This document shows, piece after piece, positions 2,947 to 21,180 of a stretch of 21,180 bases of DNA. The position numbers and the translations under genes are program-made. Source of the DNA: a virus; IMG/VR virus record IMGVR_UViG_3300037549_000028, positions 1 to 21,180 of that record. The stretch is one strand, 5' to 3'. The notes beneath the pieces were generated by a model. It was not told the origin of the DNA. It made no database searches and saw nothing but the letters and a program-made list of their open reading frames with translations. Position 1 is the stretch's first letter; each line of letters opens with the position of its first letter.

Positions 2947-3624
2947 TTGGCAATAGAGACAGTACGGGTTCGAGTGGCGATGGCTCCAAGATCGCAGCCA
3001 TTCGACGAGTCTATGGATTCCCTGAATACTGCTATCCGAGTGGCGCAGATGGCGGGGTATCGGATTCTCTTCGAGAAGGTTAGGAGAGGATGCCCAGGAT
3101 TTCAGAACGCGGGACCGATCCTGGCGCACATGCTGAGAGATGATGACACGCATCTCTTCATCGCCGCCGATGACGTGATCTTTCCGCCTGACGTTATTGT
3201 CAGACTGGTCAACGATGACAAGGATGTGGTAGCTGGAATCTATCGGAAGAATGTTCCTCTCCGAATCGAGCCAGCCAACTGTACGGCGACTGGCGATGAG
3301 TTCGTGGAGAAGTTCAGGAAAGGTGGTCTGCACGAAACCGAATATGCAGCAGGGCACAGCATGACCATAAAGCGGGAGGTGATCGAAAAGATGATTGCCG
3401 ACTATCCCGAACTTGCCTACGAGGACTTTGGAACGAAGGAAATCCACTACGCTCTGTTCATGCCAATGATTGTTGACCGGAAGTGCTATCAGGACGATTG
3501 GTCATTCTCGATTCGGGCCAAGAAGAGCGGGTTCAAATTGTGGGATGATTACAGTTGCAGATTGAAGCATTACTGCTGTGAGTTCCTCGGATTCGAGGCA
3601 CTGGAGGCTGCCAATGGCGGGTAA
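2947..3624 (+). CDS. GT-A fold glycosyltransferase-like protein
   Basis: This 225-aa protein resembles family-2-like glycosyltransferases, which move a sugar from a nucleotide-sugar to an acceptor. The N-terminal Rossmann-like half has the conserved helix DSLNTAIRVAQMAGYRI and the segment HLFIAADDVIFPPD. Asp75-Asp76 there occupy the DxD-type metal/nucleotide site. 'VVAGIYRKN' (residues 95-102) follows as in phage family members. The C-terminal half has AAGHSMTIKREVIEKM (135-150), the acidic YQDDWSFSIRAKKSGFKLW motif (181-199) holding the likely catalytic Asp, and a late His208. The start is a UUG at 2947 preceded by AAAGGT; no better AUG exists. No membrane segment is seen, so it is probably cytosolic. 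Acceptor and sugar are unknown; virion protein, DNA base or host surface are all possible. Confidence 0.82.
   Translation: MAIETVRVRVAMAPRSQPFDESMDSLNTAIRVAQMAGYRILFEKVRRGCPGFQNAGPILAHMLRDDDTHLFIAADDVIFPPDVIVRLVNDDKDVVAGIYRKNVPLRIEPANCTATGDEFVEKFRKGGLHETEYAAGHSMTIKREVIEKMIADYPELAYEDFGTKEIHYALFMPMIVDRKCYQDDWSFSIRAKKSGFKLWDDYSCRLKHYCCEFLGFEALEAANGG
3603..3607 (+). promoter_or_regulatory. Shine-Dalgarno site inside glycosyltransferase gene
   Basis: GGAGG within the last codons of the glycosyltransferase gene, six bases before the ATG at 3614. It supports a short 64-aa product starting there rather than an upstream start at 3578. Confidence 0.55.
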
Positions 3625-6895: not shown

Positions 6896-7597
6896 ATGAA
6901 TTACTCGCAGGTTTCGTTGACGAATCTCGCGTTGAACCGCATCGGAGCACGCGGCGCGATCACCAGCATCAACGATTCCAACCCCAATGCAGTCAAGGCT
7001 CTCATGTGCTGGGACGTTGTATTTCAAGAGGTATTGTCTGAGCGAGACTGGAAGTTTGCGAAGACACGCGCCGATCTTCAACTGAGCACTACCACTCCAC
7101 TGTACGCCTACCGCCACGCCTGGTCACTGCCCGCTGACTTTCTTCGATTCGTGCGCCCGCACAAACGGCCCCCAGATCGGAACTATGCTTGGTTCTGGGG
7201 GCCGGAGGGCTTCGGATTCTATCACCGTGAAGACCCTCCATTCTGGCCTCCCGGCCATGTCTATGTTGTCGAGACTCTGCCGACAGACGGCAACCGATAC
7301 GTGCTGACGAACTTCGGTGGATGCAATGGAACAGTCTCGGCAAAGATCAACTACATCCGCCTGATCACCGACTACACCCAACTCATGCCGGGGTTTGTGA
7401 ACTGCTTTGTGAACCGACTTGCAATGGAGTTGGCAATCGGAGTGACCGAGGACAAGCAGAAAAAAGATGACCTCCGAGCCGACTACAAAGACAGCCTCAA
7501 CTCGGCGGAGGCACAGAACGAATGTCTCGACTATGAGCAGGACGAAGCAGGTAGCACAAGTTGGCAGGATGCGGGCCGCTTCGTGAGGGGCTGGTAA
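6896..7597 (+). CDS. Tail tubular protein A / head-to-tail adaptor (T7 gp11-like)
   Basis: A 233-aa protein matching the podovirus adaptor that forms a ring under the portal and receives the tail nozzle. It opens with the family's typical helices: VSLTNLALNRIGARGAITSI, then CWDVVFQEVLSERDWKFAKT (about residues 43-62). These are followed by 'PLYAYRHAWSLPADFLRFVR' (75-95), INYIRLITDYTQLMPGFVN and the helix RLAMELAIGVTEDKQKKDDL near the C-terminus. The pattern 'lN.lG...i.si.d.....a..c...y......el..W.FA' and 'y.YayaLP.DclR' is diagnostic. The gene lies one reading-frame overlap (TAATG) before the nozzle gene. A strong 10-bp inverted repeat (7167-7203) lies inside the coding sequence. Confidence 0.88.
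   Translation: MNYSQVSLTNLALNRIGARGAITSINDSNPNAVKALMCWDVVFQEVLSERDWKFAKTRADLQLSTTTPLYAYRHAWSLPADFLRFVRPHKRPPDRNYAWFWGPEGFGFYHREDPPFWPPGHVYVVETLPTDGNRYVLTNFGGCNGTVSAKINYIRLITDYTQLMPGFVNCFVNRLAMELAIGVTEDKQKKDDLRADYKDSLNSAEAQNECLDYEQDEAGSTSWQDAGRFVRGW
7167..7203 (+). repeat. 10-bp perfect GC-rich inverted repeat inside the tail adaptor gene
   Basis: GGCCCCCAGA (7167-7176) and TCTGGGGGCC (7194-7203) are perfect complements separated by 17 bases. They would make a strong stem in the mRNA. No U-tract follows. It encodes ordinary residues (RPPD...FWGPEG), so it may be a coincidence of codon use, but it is the strongest hairpin I noticed in the window. Confidence 0.5.
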
Positions 7598-8547
7598 TGC
7601 CGAGAAAGAGTTACGTTACAAGAAACGCGCTGAATGCGGGAGAAATTTCGGAACTTGTCTCCTTCCGAGATGACGTGGACAAGTACAAGAGCGCGTGCAA
7701 AATTTTAGAAAATTCGATTCCTCTTGTCGAGGGTGGCGCGAAGAAAATGCCAGGGAGCTACTTCGCTGGCCCTACCGCGCTCGGCGGGGCGATGTTCACG
7801 GCCTCAATCGCAGGGACTGCCATGACCGTAACAGCCGTAAACTATGGCACGCTTCGGGTTGGGCAGACGGTCTATGGTGATGGCGTGACTGCCGGAACCA
7901 CCATCGCCACCATGGGCCTAGGAACGCAAGGCGGTGCTGGTCCGTACACGGTCAACAATTCACAGACGGTTCCGAGTGAACGAATGATGACGGCGGCAAG
8001 CGGGAAAAGCCGACTCGTACCGTTTCAGTTCTCGACAGCGCAGGGAGCTATTCTTGAGTTCTCCGCCGGGGTTGTGCGAGTGTGGCAAGCGGCAACTCAA
8101 GGATATTGGTTTCTTGGAATCACGACCGCCGCGCCGAATGAGCCGAACTATGATCCATCGCACCTTTATGCTGCCAACGACATTGCTCTGATCGGGCCGA
8201 CTTCGTTCATTTCTTCGTATGGAGGAACGCCTGCAGGTTCGCTCGCCATCTCGTTCCCCTATGGCGCAACTAATTCCAGTTCAGTGTGGGTCACGTTCTC
8301 TGTCAACACGTCCGATGTTCTCAGTGTCACCGCTACCGGGACAATCCCGTCTCAGGGAATCAACATCGCACTAGCGAACGCGACCCACGCCAACAATTCA
8401 GCCGCAAACATTCAGGCAGCCATTCGGGCCTTGGTTTCGCTGAACACTACACTGAGCAACTTCGTAGACTTGTCCGAGTGGACGGTGACACCAGACACCA
8501 CCTACTACGCTACGCCGTGGATCATCGCGCCTGTGAGTGAGCCATGA
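7597..8547 (+). CDS. Tail nozzle (gp12-like / tail tubular B) N-terminal part, separate gene
   Basis: A 316-aa product carrying the start of a podovirus nozzle protein: NALNAGEISELVSFRDDVDKYKSACKILENSIPLVEGGAKKMPGSYF in sequential pieces (residues 10-56), then KSRLVPFQFSTAQGAILEF (137-155). In the family these two blocks normally lie close together. Here about 70 residues (65-134) with FTASIAGTAMTVT...YTVNNSQTV are inserted between them. Residues 170-316 are beta-rich and end PWIIAPVSEP at a TGA. The ATG at 7597 overlaps the preceding TAA and has GAGGGG six bases upstream; an in-frame start at 7561 lies inside the adaptor gene and is less likely. The remainder of the nozzle protein follows as its own gene at 8544, overlapping by 4 nt (ATGA). 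The two products probably assemble together in the tail tube. Confidence 0.8.
   Translation: MPRKSYVTRNALNAGEISELVSFRDDVDKYKSACKILENSIPLVEGGAKKMPGSYFAGPTALGGAMFTASIAGTAMTVTAVNYGTLRVGQTVYGDGVTAGTTIATMGLGTQGGAGPYTVNNSQTVPSERMMTAASGKSRLVPFQFSTAQGAILEFSAGVVRVWQAATQGYWFLGITTAAPNEPNYDPSHLYAANDIALIGPTSFISSYGGTPAGSLAISFPYGATNSSSVWVTFSVNTSDVLSVTATGTIPSQGINIALANATHANNSAANIQAAIRALVSLNTTLSNFVDLSEWTVTPDTTYYATPWIIAPVSEP
7789..7998 (+). repeat. Beta insert domain, copy 2 (in nozzle N-part)
   Basis: Residues about 65-134 of the 316-aa product: 'FTASIAGTAMTVTAV', 'GTLRVGQTVYGDGV', 'GPYTVNNSQTVPS'. It shares the motif order 'FT..I.GT...V....G.L..G ... T...YTV..SQT..S' with 5697-5912. It interrupts two blocks that are close together in typical nozzle proteins. 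Confidence 0.6.
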
Positions 8548-10775
8548 GTATTTTTCAACCACCATATGCGCCGCCTCCTCCTCCACCCCAAAGAAATCCA
8601 CCGGGTGCGTTTTCCTTCGTGAATGCGAGTTGGATTGGGAAAGTGGTATTGGCGAACCAGAACGATCAGTTTCCTCTTACCATCGACTCGAAAGGCGTGG
8701 TGGGCTGGAACTCGACATATTGGGAGTTAACGACAAACTTCGTCGGATACCCGCTTGAGGTTGCGACTCCATACCTCGAATCCGATTTGTTCGACTTGGA
8801 TTGCAGCACGCAGAGTGCGGACATTCTCTGGATATTCCATCCCAATTACCCACCCGCTTGCATTGAGAGACAGAGCGCGAATAGTTGGGCCTACAGCCTA
8901 TCGCTGCCCAACCAGCAACCCGGAGAGCCGCCGTATCGTGGAACTCTGGACGTGGTGAAAACGGGATACTCGGCTCTAGGTCAGAGCATCACTGCAATCA
9001 CTCAGGCGAATCCGTGTAACGTCACAGTGAGCGCATCGACGAATGTTTTTGCGAATGGTGCCCGAGTTTACATCAACCTAGTCGCTGGAATGGTGGAGTT
9101 AAATCAAGGCGAGTTCCTCATCAACAATACTCACCTTGGAAGCGGAGTATTCTCCTTCGACCTCTATGATCCAGACACTAGTTCAGGTGTAGATTCAACA
9201 GGATACATCAAATACACTGGTGGCGGATTCGCTGTCGAAGTGGTTCCGATGTTTGCTGCTACGGGCGATTATCCGAAGTGCGGCACGCTATATCAGGAGC
9301 GTCTTTGTGTTGGCGGGGCTTACAACACTCCCGCACAGTTAAACGGCAGCACTCAGGATGACTACCCTGAGTTTATCTGCGACCCGAATGCTGACGATCA
9401 CGCAATTCAGTTCACCCTGGTATCGAACAAGCTAGACCAGATTCTCAACATGATCGGAACGCCAAACGCTCTCCTGATTGGAACCTCTGGGGGCGTATGG
9501 ATCATGGCGGGAACTAATGGAGGGTCGCTGACACAGACCAACGTGATTGCAGCCAAGCAAACTACCGTTGGCGTCGGATCGATGCAACCGCAGTTGGTCA
9601 ACGATTCAGCCATCTTCGTTTCCCGGTCGGCGAAGATTGTCATCTTCATGGTATTCAATTTCTCGACGAACCAGTGGGATAACTACGACCTCACCCGACT
9701 CAATCGCAGCATCACGCTAGGGCCGACGCTGGCACAGTCTGGCATTGTCCAGACTGGATTCCAAATCGATCCGTACCCGATATTCTGGGCTGTTCGGGCT
9801 GACGGGCAGGTGATCGGCTTGGTATTCAACAAGCAGGATCAGGTGTATGCATGGTTCCGGGTTAATATGCAGTTACAGGGAGGCAACATTGAGTCCCTCG
9901 CTGTGATCAGCGGAACGAATCAGGAAGATCAGGTTGCCATAGAGGTCAACCGGACGATCAATGGAGTAACTCAGCGGTACATAGAATACTTCATGCCGCA
10001 GGAGATGTATGGGCAGTTGTCGAACGCCTTCCTCGTGAACTGTGGGCAGCAGTTGAGCCTTCTGCCGGCCGTCGCTATCACGGGAATCTCACAGGCAAAT
10101 CCAGCCGTAGTCAACGCTCCGGCGCACGGGTTCTCGGATGGGATGACGGTGCAGATCGCAAACGTCCAAGGGATGACTGACATCAATCAGGACGCTACCG
10201 AGGCCTACACCATCGCGGGCGCGACGACTGACACCTTCCAGTTGGTCGGAATGGACACAACCACTTGGCCCGCCTATACGGGCGGCGGTACGGTTATGCA
10301 GGTGGCGAACCAAGTAACCGGACTGAGTTACCTTCTCGGACAGACCGTTGTCGCCGTAGGCGATGGCGCTTTAATACTTGAGCCGACCGTTGTCACATCC
10401 GATGAGATGACGTTTCCCTACTACTGCAACCTGATCACCATTGGACTCCCTTATCAGGTAACCATTCAACCGACGAATCCTGTACTGGCAACATCAAGCT
10501 CGACAACTCGCGGGATGAAGCAAAAGTTGGACAGGGTTACGCTATCTTTGTATCAGTCCATGGGAGGTCAGTACGGAACGAGCCTAAGTTCAATGTACGA
10601 CATAGTTTACGATCAGGGAACTATGGGACAACCGCCAGCGATGGCGACAGGAGAATATACCCGAGATTTGGATGCGGATTGGGATGACCGTTCGACCATC
10701 TACATCACGCAGAATGACCCGTTTCCGTTTACCTTGCGCGGCTTGATTATGAGACTCAGTTACAATCCTGATTAG
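8544..10775 (+). CDS. Tail nozzle (gp12-like / tail tubular B) main part
   Basis: A 743-aa product containing the rest of a podovirus nozzle. It begins with a proline run (P10-P15). LEVATPYLESDLFDLDCSTQ (71-90) and SADILWIFHPNYPPACIERQ (91-110) follow, then TLYQERLCVGGAYNTPAQL (248-266), IQFTLVSNKLDQILNM (288-303), LLIGTSGGVWIMAG (310-323), TQTNVIAAKQTTVGVGSMQPQ in pieces (330-350), IFWAVRADGQVIGLVFNKQD (413-432) and NRTINGVTQRYIEYFMPQ (469-486). These are the classic order of nozzle propeller motifs. Two FCCH-like modules (residues 147-228 and 509-586) are inserted. The ATG overlaps the TGA of the upstream gene, and a TGA also closes the upstream frame of this gene, so a simple readthrough or single-base frameshift at the junction cannot join them. 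Translation is probably coupled. Confidence 0.85.
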   Translation: MSIFQPPYAPPPPPPQRNPPGAFSFVNASWIGKVVLANQNDQFPLTIDSKGVVGWNSTYWELTTNFVGYPLEVATPYLESDLFDLDCSTQSADILWIFHPNYPPACIERQSANSWAYSLSLPNQQPGEPPYRGTLDVVKTGYSALGQSITAITQANPCNVTVSASTNVFANGARVYINLVAGMVELNQGEFLINNTHLGSGVFSFDLYDPDTSSGVDSTGYIKYTGGGFAVEVVPMFAATGDYPKCGTLYQERLCVGGAYNTPAQLNGSTQDDYPEFICDPNADDHAIQFTLVSNKLDQILNMIGTPNALLIGTSGGVWIMAGTNGGSLTQTNVIAAKQTTVGVGSMQPQLVNDSAIFVSRSAKIVIFMVFNFSTNQWDNYDLTRLNRSITLGPTLAQSGIVQTGFQIDPYPIFWAVRADGQVIGLVFNKQDQVYAWFRVNMQLQGGNIESLAVISGTNQEDQVAIEVNRTINGVTQRYIEYFMPQEMYGQLSNAFLVNCGQQLSLLPAVAITGISQANPAVVNAPAHGFSDGMTVQIANVQGMTDINQDATEAYTIAGATTDTFQLVGMDTTTWPAYTGGGTVMQVANQVTGLSYLLGQTVVAVGDGALILEPTVVTSDEMTFPYYCNLITIGLPYQVTIQPTNPVLATSSSTTRGMKQKLDRVTLSLYQSMGGQYGTSLSSMYDIVYDQGTMGQPPAMATGEYTRDLDADWDDRSTIYITQNDPFPFTLRGLIMRLSYNPD
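8982..9227 (+). other. FCCH-like beta module 1 within the nozzle gene
   Basis: Residues 147-228: SITAITQANPCNVTVSAS, then 'FaNGarVyI..v.GM.eLNqgeFlI', ending 'DsTGYikYTGGG'. This matches the FCCH-type module (named for ubiquitin-activating E1 enzymes) often inserted in phage structural proteins. Here it is a structural insert, not evidence of ubiquitin chemistry. Confidence 0.65.
10068..10301 (+). other. FCCH-like beta module 2 within the nozzle gene
   Basis: Residues 509-586: AVAITGISQANPAVVNAPAH, then GFSDGMTVQIANVQGMTDIN, 'aYTIaGaTtDTFqLvGmDtT', ending PAYTGGGTVM. It has the same order of motifs as module 1, and closer to the usual form ('apaHGfsdGd.V.i..v.GM..lN'). Confidence 0.7.
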
Positions 10776-17905: not shown

Positions 17906-18283
17906 ATGAAAATCGAGATCAAGACGATTCCGCACGAGGATCAGCATTATCCCACCGTAGGGGACTGGTATTGGGATGGCCTCGGAAACCTACAGATTCG
18001 TGTGTCCGACATGAAGGACTGGCGCTATGAGGCTCTGGTGGCGTTCCATGAGATGTTCGAGGCGCTGGCGTGCAAGCGTGCAGGCATCTCTGAGGAATCC
18101 GTTACAGCGTTCGATATTGAGTTTGAGAACGCACGCAAGCAAGGCAACGAAGATGAGCCGGGAGACTGCATCCGTGCTCCTTACTATCGGCAGCACCAGC
18201 TTGCGACCATCGTTGAGCGTCAACTCGCAATGGAACTCGGCGTTATTTGGGACGATTATTCCGCGAAGGTGATGAGTCTGTGA
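17906..18283 (+). CDS. Small conserved phage protein with HExxE motif, possible metal-binding
   Basis: A 125-aa protein: MKIEIKTIPHEDQHYPTVGD, then the strand segment NLQIRVSDMKDWRYEALVAF, then HEMFEALACKRAGISEE (48-64), and APYYRQHQLATIVERQLAME (91-110) followed by LGVIWDDY. His48-Glu49-x-x-Glu52 and the later His97 and Glu104 form a set of potential metal ligands resembling a reduced zinc-protease site. However, the second His of HExxH is absent, so catalysis is unproven. I recall similar 'H-E-x-x-E-A...C...GI' proteins in other phage genomes without known function. GGAGG at 17897-17901 is a clear ribosome binding site. It follows the ejection gene by one base and overlaps the ATP-grasp gene (TGTGA), suggesting the two act together. 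Confidence 0.72.
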   Translation: MKIEIKTIPHEDQHYPTVGDWYWDGLGNLQIRVSDMKDWRYEALVAFHEMFEALACKRAGISEESVTAFDIEFENARKQGNEDEPGDCIRAPYYRQHQLATIVERQLAMELGVIWDDYSAKVMSL

Positions 18284-19539
18284 GTGAAGACCTCAAGTCG
18301 AAGTCCGTCTGTGTGGTGGACAATGGGGTGTACACGTCCCTTGCTGAAAAAATGTCTGAATCCTTTGGAAAGGTGTTCTATACCTCGCCCTGGGTGGCTG
18401 ATTATCCTACTTCTGCCCACATCCAACTAGGTGAGGGATTCCCTGAGTTCGAGCGCGTGGATGACATCTGGGACATTGTTGACGACGTTGACCTCTTTGT
18501 GTTCCCTGAGTCGCATCAAGGTCCGTTGCAGGAGTATCTCGCGCGGATTGGGAAGCGAGTTTGGGGATCACGCAACGGCGACGAAATCGAACTCTACCGC
18601 GAGGAGTCCAAGGAGTTTATCGACTCGCTTGGCATCCTGCAACCTCCCTACGAAGTTGTGAAGGGAATGGCGGCGCTTCGGAAGTACATCAAGAGTCGAG
18701 ACAAGGAAAAGCTCTGGATCAAGATCAGCCGTACTCGCGGGGATACCGAAACCTTTTCCGTGGAAGGCTACGAGTTGAGCAAGAACCATCTCGACGAACT
18801 GGAGGCTGAGTTTGGGCCGATGGCTGAATACCGCACATTCGTTGTCGAAGAGAACCTGCCCGACACCTACGATCTGGCGATTGACACGTACTGCATTGAC
18901 GGGCAGTATCCCTCGAAGAGCATGTTGGGAAATGAGCAAAAGGATCAAGGCTATATCGGTGTTGTCAAGGACTGGAAAGAGTTTCCGAAGGCGATGCGGG
19001 AGAACTATGAGAAGCTGAGTCCCGCACTCAAGGAATACGGCTACCGCAACTTCTTCGCTATGGAGCATCGCACCGGAAAAGACAAGATGTATCTGTCCGA
19101 CCCTTGCATGAGAGTCGGATCACCCATCTTCGAGTTGGAATTGAACATGATCGCCAACCTGCCGGAGATTCTCTGGGAAGGGGCTGACGGAAAGCTAGTC
19201 GAGCCGGAGTACAAGGGGAAATACGGATATGAGATTCTGGTTCAAAGCTCCTGGGTTGACAAGCACCCTCTGTTGGTTGAGTTTCCTGAGAAGTATCGTG
19301 ACCAGATCAAGTTCCGGTACGCTGCTCAGTTCCCTGACGGACTGTGGATTTTGCCGCAACAGGCAGGGCCGATCTTCGGGGCCATCGTGTGCTACGGAAA
19401 CAGCATTGATGCTTGCGTGGCCGAGGCTGAGGAGATCAGTAGTAAAATAAAGGGCCAGAACGTCGAATCCTTTACCGGAAGCGCGGGAGACTTAAAAAAG
19501 AACTTGGAAGAGTTGGCATCATGGGGAATCACATTTTGA
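18280..19539 (+). CDS. ATP-grasp ligase-like protein (PurD/carboxylate-amine ligase type)
   Basis: A 419-aa soluble protein with ATP-grasp layout: a Rossmann-like N-terminal domain (VCVVDNGVYTSLAEKMSESF, then 'DLFVFPESHQGPLQEYL'); a linker GSRNGDEIELYREESKEFID (97-116); and an ATP-binding subdomain with LWIKISRTRGDTETF (145-159, Lys148 candidate). TFVVEENLPDTYDLAIDTYC (186-205, adenine/hinge Glu) follows, then FFAMEHR (258-264) and LSDPCMRVGSPIFELELNMI (272-291) with the likely metal-binding acidic residues. Such enzymes join a carboxylate to an amine via acyl phosphate. The substrate is unknown: host metabolite, peptide or virion protein. The GTG at 18280 is chosen because it overlaps the upstream stop and has GAAGG about 10 bases upstream. 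An in-frame ATG at 18247 lies inside the neighbour. Confidence 0.78.
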   Translation: MSEDLKSKSVCVVDNGVYTSLAEKMSESFGKVFYTSPWVADYPTSAHIQLGEGFPEFERVDDIWDIVDDVDLFVFPESHQGPLQEYLARIGKRVWGSRNGDEIELYREESKEFIDSLGILQPPYEVVKGMAALRKYIKSRDKEKLWIKISRTRGDTETFSVEGYELSKNHLDELEAEFGPMAEYRTFVVEENLPDTYDLAIDTYCIDGQYPSKSMLGNEQKDQGYIGVVKDWKEFPKAMRENYEKLSPALKEYGYRNFFAMEHRTGKDKMYLSDPCMRVGSPIFELELNMIANLPEILWEGADGKLVEPEYKGKYGYEILVQSSWVDKHPLLVEFPEKYRDQIKFRYAAQFPDGLWILPQQAGPIFGAIVCYGNSIDACVAEAEEISSKIKGQNVESFTGSAGDLKKNLEELASWGITF

Positions 19540-19550
19540 ACGGAGGAGCT

Positions 19551-20084
19551 ATGAAAAACCGGATACTATCACTTTTGATGATCGCGTTCATGGGACTCGG
19601 CTCGGCCTGGGCCGTTGGAACCTGTACCGTAAGCGATGTAACGACAACCCAGATAGCCTCCGAGTCAAACAGGATTCCAGATTCCGGAGCCGTCATCGTC
19701 ACGGTTAAATGTGTAGCTGATGCATCGGCGGGAACCTTCCCGGCTGTCAGTATTCCGGTTTCAGGGTTCTACCCATCGACAACGATGTTGAACAGCTACA
19801 ACCTTACTGGGATGATTTTGTATGAGGTTGGGAGAACTCCGGGTACTCCAAGCCCTACCGCCAATTACACGGCCACGATTACGGATACCAATGGGTTTGC
19901 TCTGGACTTGGCCTTGCTGACGGCCAACGGCAGCGCCGCCGCCGCGCAGTTGACCCCAATCGTGTTCACCACATCCTCAGTATCGTATCCGACAGTGCGA
20001 AGTGCATTGACGGTACAGATTAGCGCGAACTTGGTCAACAGCGCAGTGGTTACGCTAGACCTAATTTTCCGCGCGATAGTATAA
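19551..20084 (+). CDS. Exported beta-rich protein of unknown function, before tail fibre
   Basis: A 177-aa protein with a typical Sec signal peptide: MKNR, then the hydrophobic ILSLLMIAFMGLGSAWA and cleavage predicted after AWA (residue 21). The mature part is Ser/Thr/Val-rich, likely beta, and has exactly two cysteines (Cys25 and Cys54) that could pair in the periplasm. The C-terminal strands read YPTVRSALTVQISANLVNSA and VVTLDLIFRAIV. The ATG at 19551 is fixed by CGGAGGAGC just upstream and by the signal peptide; an in-frame ATG at 19521 would spoil it. It lies 11 bases after the ATP-grasp gene and 11 bases before the fibre gene, so it may be a fibre-associated or assembly protein. I do not recognise the family. 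Confidence 0.75.
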   Translation: MKNRILSLLMIAFMGLGSAWAVGTCTVSDVTTTQIASESNRIPDSGAVIVTVKCVADASAGTFPAVSIPVSGFYPSTTMLNSYNLTGMILYEVGRTPGTPSPTANYTATITDTNGFALDLALLTANGSAAAAQLTPIVFTTSSVSYPTVRSALTVQISANLVNSAVVTLDLIFRAIV

Positions 20085-20095
20085 GGGAGATAGCG

Positions 20096-21180
20096 ATGAA
20101 ACGGATTGTCCTCTTGTTCTTGGCGATGCTGCCGATTGCCGCTCACGCTACGGTTATTACGCAGAATCTAAACGTGGCATTTGTTTGCTCAGGGAGCACA
20201 GGGCCGTATCCGTTCACCTTCTCGATCTCCGACCCCACAGCGTTGACTGTGACGCAGAATGGGACTGTCCTTGCCTCCACTGACTACACGATGATAGCGG
20301 TCAACAACAACTACGAGAATGGAGGAAACGTCACTCTAAACAGCGCGTGTCCAGCGGCGCAGACCTTAGTGCTTACACGGTCAACTCCTCTCACGCAAGC
20401 GACGGTGTTCTCCGACAACATGCCTGTTCCGATGAAGAGCTTCGAGCGCGGCCTCGACAAACTGACAGAGATTGTGCAGGAGCAGGCAGGGGGCGGCGGC
20501 AGCGGTCTCCCGGCTGGCTGTACTTCATCGAGCACGGGAAACATCAGTTGCACAGGCACGGTGAACGCGACATCACTGACGGCGCAGAGCGTGAACGGTG
20601 CGATAAATCCCTTAACCTATGCGGGATCAGACATCGCGGCAAAAACTTCAAACGCTGTTTCCGCGCTCGGATGTAGCTCAACTTTTCCCTGTAATTTTGT
20701 GCTTCCGCCATCGCCGCAGATGTCGTTCTCTGGCACGCTGACTCTGACCGATTCAATGACGTTCTCTTGCACCCCGGCTGGCGAGTCTGCGCGGCAGTCG
20801 GCAGCACAGCCGCCTACTTTGAACTATACGGGCAGCGGAACAGCGGTCGTCATCAACGGCGCGAGGGCGCAGTTCAATGGCTGCGGGCTGGCTATGGGTA
20901 ACGCCACGACCGGCATCCTGATCGAGAATCAGAACGCGCAAATCAACAACGTCTATACCATAGGCGGGAATGTGGGATCGGTTCTGGTCGAACTCGGGGG
21001 GAGCGACAACGCGCAAATCAACCAGTTCACGGCTTTTGAGTTTCAGGGCGATGGAATCTGGAGTCACGACAATTACGACCCGACCATCACCAACTCCCTG
21101 ATGTACGGATATACCATCGGCGGCGCGAGTGGCGCGACAAATCACACCTCGCGCAGTCTGGTCATGGACTCTGGAACGGC
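20096..21180 (+). CDS. Tail fibre / tailspike protein, N-terminal part (3' partial)
   Basis: The frame is open for 361 codons to the window edge. Residues 1-18 form a Sec-type signal peptide (MKRIVLLFLAMLPIAAHA, cleavage predicted after AHA). Residues about 25-130 follow the pattern of the T7-fibre-like attachment domain: YPFTFSISDPTALTVTQNGT, 'lastDYTmi..nn..nGG.vtLn..cPa.qtLvLtR.TPltQ', then MKSFERGLDKLTEIVQEQ. A Gly-rich hinge (GGGGSG, 132-137) leads into beta repeats resembling a parallel beta-helix ('GILIENQNAQINNVYTIGG', 'VELGGSDNAQINQFTAFEFQ', 'SHDNYDPTITNSLMYGYTIGG'), a form common in depolymerising tailspikes. Cysteines appear in close pairs (31/85, 142/152). AGGGAG at 20084-20089 precedes the ATG. 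Receptor and enzymatic activity cannot be told because the gene is cut off. Confidence 0.8.
   Translation, partial: MKRIVLLFLAMLPIAAHATVITQNLNVAFVCSGSTGPYPFTFSISDPTALTVTQNGTVLASTDYTMIAVNNNYENGGNVTLNSACPAAQTLVLTRSTPLTQATVFSDNMPVPMKSFERGLDKLTEIVQEQAGGGGSGLPAGCTSSSTGNISCTGTVNATSLTAQSVNGAINPLTYAGSDIAAKTSNAVSALGCSSTFPCNFVLPPSPQMSFSGTLTLTDSMTFSCTPAGESARQSAAQPPTLNYTGSGTAVVINGARAQFNGCGLAMGNATTGILIENQNAQINNVYTIGGNVGSVLVELGGSDNAQINQFTAFEFQGDGIWSHDNYDPTITNSLMYGYTIGGASGATNHTSRSLVMDSGT

Follow-up and report, generated by a model that had tools for sequence, protein, structure and literature searches.

Predicted Sec signals on the tail fibres of uncultured epsilon15-like podoviruses suggest export of the receptor-binding module before assembly

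The tailspikes of epsilon15, BcepC6B and SPN1S and the Klebsiella tailspikes Dpo31/Dpo36 (PDB 28lx, 28mg, 8ck1) share an N-terminal docking domain that begins directly at the start of the protein, and tailed-phage virions are generally taken to be built in the cytoplasm. Export of phage products by the host is known from other settings. G3p of the filamentous phage M13 is a receptor-binding protein made with a signal sequence and exported by Sec (PMC8310372), although it carries a C-terminal membrane anchor and is assembled into an extruding particle, and the secretory endolysin of fOg44 is exported with a cleaved signal before lysis (PMC4640515) but is a lysis protein rather than a virion part. 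The tail of Agrobacterium phage Milano contains receptor-binding and tail proteins rich in disulfides (PMC10811340), with neither signal peptides nor the periplasm mentioned in the text examined. Here we report that a group of uncultured tailed bacterial viruses places predicted secretion signals on its host-binding tail proteins, so that these parts are probably folded and disulfide-bonded outside the inner membrane and joined to virus particles only when the cell bursts, a route for which we found no precedent in tailed viruses in the open-access literature searched.

The stretch of DNA analysed (the window) is a 21,180-base IMG/VR virus record, IMGVR_UViG_3300037549_000028, and is a fragment of an epsilon15-like podovirus, with an epsilon15-type major capsid protein (PF20911, GP7) and a PF12236 connector. 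The gene order is connector, major capsid protein GP7, tail tube, internal virion protein, large ORF and fibre, so the fibre follows the tail-tube and ejection genes of an epsilon15-like virion module. The tail tubular protein B homologue, one ORF of roughly 860-1240 aa in relatives, is two ORFs overlapping by ATGA in the window (7561-8547 and 8544-10775), either a frameshift or a real split; the second matches Pfam E1_FCCH (PF16190, E=1.4e-16), probably a misleading domain name for a repeat in phage tail proteins. A C2H2 zinc-finger protein (PF00096; 6396-6887) lies between capsid and tail genes and has homologues in several relatives, and a 225-aa ORF (2947-3624) that looks glycosyltransferase-like by eye, without a Pfam hit, is kept in two relatives at 66-70% identity.

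An earlier note on this sequence had drawn attention to two consecutive tail-side proteins with signal peptides and paired cysteines, and that observation is confirmed and proves much broader than first described. The 177-aa ORF (19551-20084, plus strand) is preceded by GGAGGAG just before its ATG and reads MKNRILSLLMIAFMGLGSAWA|VGTC, its predicted Sec signal peptide (19551-19613) having n, h and c regions and A-W-A at -3/-1. The mature protein has exactly two Cys, as the note stated, at precursor residues 25 (codon 19623-19625) and 54 (codon 19710-19712). The fibre ORF (20096-21180, plus strand) has GGGAG before its ATG and runs off the end of the window; it reads MKRIVLLFLAMLPIAAHA|TVITQ, with the predicted Sec signal peptide at 20096-20149. 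The visible part of the fibre has eight Cys, at 31, 85, 142, 152, 193, 199, 225 and 263, so that some but not all are closely spaced, whereas the note had described closely spaced pairs. Signal peptides were called throughout by a rule-based test and by inspection, for a basic n-region, a hydrophobic core and small residues at -3 and -1, and both proteins satisfy these criteria.

The leader of the fibre stands in front of a complete docking domain (20150-20485, mature residues 1-112). Residues 19-131 of the precursor match tail-fibre families starting at profile position 2 (phrog_1640, E=1.6e-17), and a profile of the family matches the solved Klebsiella tailspikes (28lx/8ck1) over their residues 2-119 (E=1.2e-19; positions 1-111 of the profile against 28lx). 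Homologues in cultured phages (BcepC6B, SPN1S, and Klebsiella, Vibrio, Pelagibacter and Alteromonas phages) start with Met or an alternative start directly before the residue that is first after the predicted cleavage here, and SP-less homologues begin M|TV or M|TI at that point. Cleavage at AHA|TV would therefore restore the normal mature N-terminus from behind an 18-residue leader that the homologues examined lack. This makes it very unlikely that the hydrophobic N-terminus is uncleaved and anchors the fibre to the tail, as the note had offered as one possibility, or to a membrane: although the cleavage is inferred from sequence alone, the cores are short, Ala or Gly stands at -1 exactly at the domain boundary, and SP-less homologues dock without it. 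Production of dual products from an internal start was also considered and rejected, as internal start codons inside the signal are not conserved and are absent in two relatives, L009 and L011 (L and G numbers denote our related loci and records). For the distal beta-helix of this type of tailspike, a Beta_helix match was found in relative L003, the window's own fibre gene being cut off by the contig end.

To ask how widespread these signals are, we read twelve related IMG/VR contigs whole. All but one have the signal on every docking-domain fibre, and each contig has one such domain (G010 has two, both with signals). Immediately upstream of the 177-aa gene in the window is an ATP-grasp-like gene (18247-19539, plus strand), without a Pfam hit and with a weak match to GAR synthetase (2yw2, E=0.012), which lies directly upstream of the signal-bearing module in all 12 relatives and was used as a neighbourhood marker. 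Across the 13 contigs (window plus 12), 37 of 57 genes downstream of this marker carry signals, against 6 of 274 elsewhere (Fisher p=3e-28, although genes of related phages are not independent). Resampling by the marker rather than by the fibre found further members, L099, L100/L101 and L102 with signals and L105 without. An artefact of wrong start codons or a chance hydrophobic leader, conceivable for metagenomic contigs whose start sites are predicted, is refuted by this survey, as the signals follow ribosome-binding sites and occur in about 20 distinct contigs. Two distant, AT-richer contigs with the same marker gene (L109, 13382-18169; L110, 16532-19182) also carry runs of signal-bearing genes, one matching tail-fibre PHROGs, with leaders ending AFGQ/AWSQ that look Bacteroidota-like. 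A search of genome contigs for the host returned a single spurious hit (L016), whose genome gave no profile match, and 14 control genomes gave nothing usable as a search centre. Among 19 homologous places in 18 of 399 Pseudomonadota genomes, none has a signal.

The 177-aa protein behaves in the same manner. Searches with the single sequence, and in the phage collection, found no close relatives, and homologues were recovered only through an alignment, in 7 related loci, all with signal peptides whose sequence varies while the pattern is kept. Cys25 and Cys54 are invariant in 8 aligned homologues, and two homologues have an insertion that brings a second local pair. Its AlphaFold model (a predicted beta-sandwich, pLDDT 62) gave no PDB match below E=1e-3 and otherwise only unnamed or uncharacterised viral proteins, and we refer to it simply as a putatively exported protein of the appendage module.

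Signal and cysteines go together in the fibres. Of 78 distinct homologous fibres scored in one survey, all 23 with a signal have mature Cys13 (Cys31 of the window's precursor, codon 20186-20188) and a partner at residue 67 (Cys85, codon 20348-20350, in the window), 69 or 75, depending on insertions and a local shift, while none of 55 SP-less fibres has this pair; 3 of the 55 have Cys13 with a Cys near the end of the domain at 113-115, a different arrangement. The partner lies at 75 in L113 and has moved from 67 to 69 in L131 and L145, as expected if a bond rather than a position is kept. Whole-fibre Cys density is 1.93 against 0.66 per 100 aa (p=1e-10), and Cys numbers in SP proteins are mostly even (28/35 against 94/178), a known bias of exported proteins (PMC7678975). 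A signal peptide with even, paired cysteines is the pattern of a DsbA-type disulfide substrate, although this is a bias and not proof of bonds, and SP-bearing fibres with odd counts exist (G002, G005, G011). On the domain tree the SP-less pair L014/L105 lies inside the SP clade, so signal and Cys pair were probably lost together, although the fork joining them to an SP-bearing relative has modest support; these two fibres have no Cys in about 357 aa. The association amounts to about one gain and one loss on the domain tree (two label changes), so the number of independent events is small. In both the L014 and L105 contigs the next gene is again SP-bearing, which fits a split design of cytoplasmic adaptor and exported distal part. 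The earlier note had named relatives starting downstream of the hydrophobic stretch as something that would refute its proposal: distant relatives do start there, but close relatives keep the signal, and the SP-less homologues lack the Cys13-Cys67/69/75 pair.

It remains possible, but unlikely, that the signals are weak or cryptic, the fibres folding in the cytoplasm and forming disulfides only after release, as in Milano phage (PMC10811340), which has many virion disulfides; trimeric fibres may fold fast. Post-lysis oxidation would explain disulfides but not signals: diverged signals keep charge, hydrophobic core and -3/-1 residues, which needs selection, retained leaders would sit on the docking face, and SP-less relatives lack the Cys pair.

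Based on these observations, we suggest that the genes encode Sec-exported parts of the receptor-binding apparatus. In this view, the signal peptide sends the fibre and its neighbours through SecYEG, signal peptidase I removes it, and the proteins fold in the periplasm and form disulfides there, including Cys13-Cys67 in the docking domain. Capsid, portal, tube and ejection proteins have no signals and would assemble in the cytoplasm, the two halves meeting when holin opens the inner membrane and the cell lyses, whereupon the docking domain, now with a normal tailspike N-terminus, would bind the tail. The highest 19-residue hydropathy in the last 80 aa of SP-module proteins is about 1.5 or less, so that they have no second membrane segment, in contrast to G3p, and would be soluble in the periplasm. 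A relative encodes a phage lysozyme (PF00959) without a signal just downstream, consistent with holin-dependent lysis. In other phages tailspikes can bind finished particles outside the cell, as in addition of the P22 tailspike in vitro, although docking after lysis has to compete with dilution. The sequences themselves establish the signals, the exact predicted cleavage point, the linkage of signal to Cys pair and the concentration of signals in the tail-appendage module, whereas actual export and cleavage, disulfide formation and attachment at or after lysis are inferred. We regard export and cleavage as highly probable, periplasmic disulfides as nearly so, and attachment to virions, like the explanation as a whole, as more likely than not.

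The three interpretations in the earlier note are thus partly supported: export before lysis with addition outside is the one favoured, while anchors and decoys are not. We consider it unlikely that the exported proteins never become part of virions and are instead secreted enzymes, receptor maskers, decoys or superinfection blockers derived from fibres, acting in the envelope or after release. Phages are known to export host-modifying proteins, SP-bearing unknown genes in Porphyromonas phages were read that way (PMC10367356), and one SP protein here has a weak GDSL-lipase match. However, this reading does not explain the strongly conserved virion-docking domain and its exact mature N-terminus; no other docking fibre was found in the contigs, the mature proteins have no second membrane anchor, and a soluble periplasmic trimer could not reach the cell surface unaided. 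No tyrosine integrase was found in the 13 records, and only G007 has a serine recombinase (PF00239; G007:C1:25294-25737), not found in the closely related record G008 and possibly a mobile insertion, so expression in lysogens has no support.

A more far-reaching possibility, which we hold to be somewhat more likely than not, is that a tailed phage lineage builds its virion in two compartments, with DNA-filled particles in the cytoplasm and a complete, disulfide-bonded receptor-binding module of several proteins in the periplasm, joined when the inner membrane fails; the runs of signal-bearing genes in L109 and L110 suggest that the strategy is not limited to this lineage. Export of the receptor-binding module would be a different assembly route from the cytoplasmic one and would explain the cysteine-rich tailspikes of this phage group. 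It would also change how signal peptides in phage genomes are read, as SP-bearing phage genes are usually taken as host-modifying or lysis genes, yet here they appear to be virion parts.
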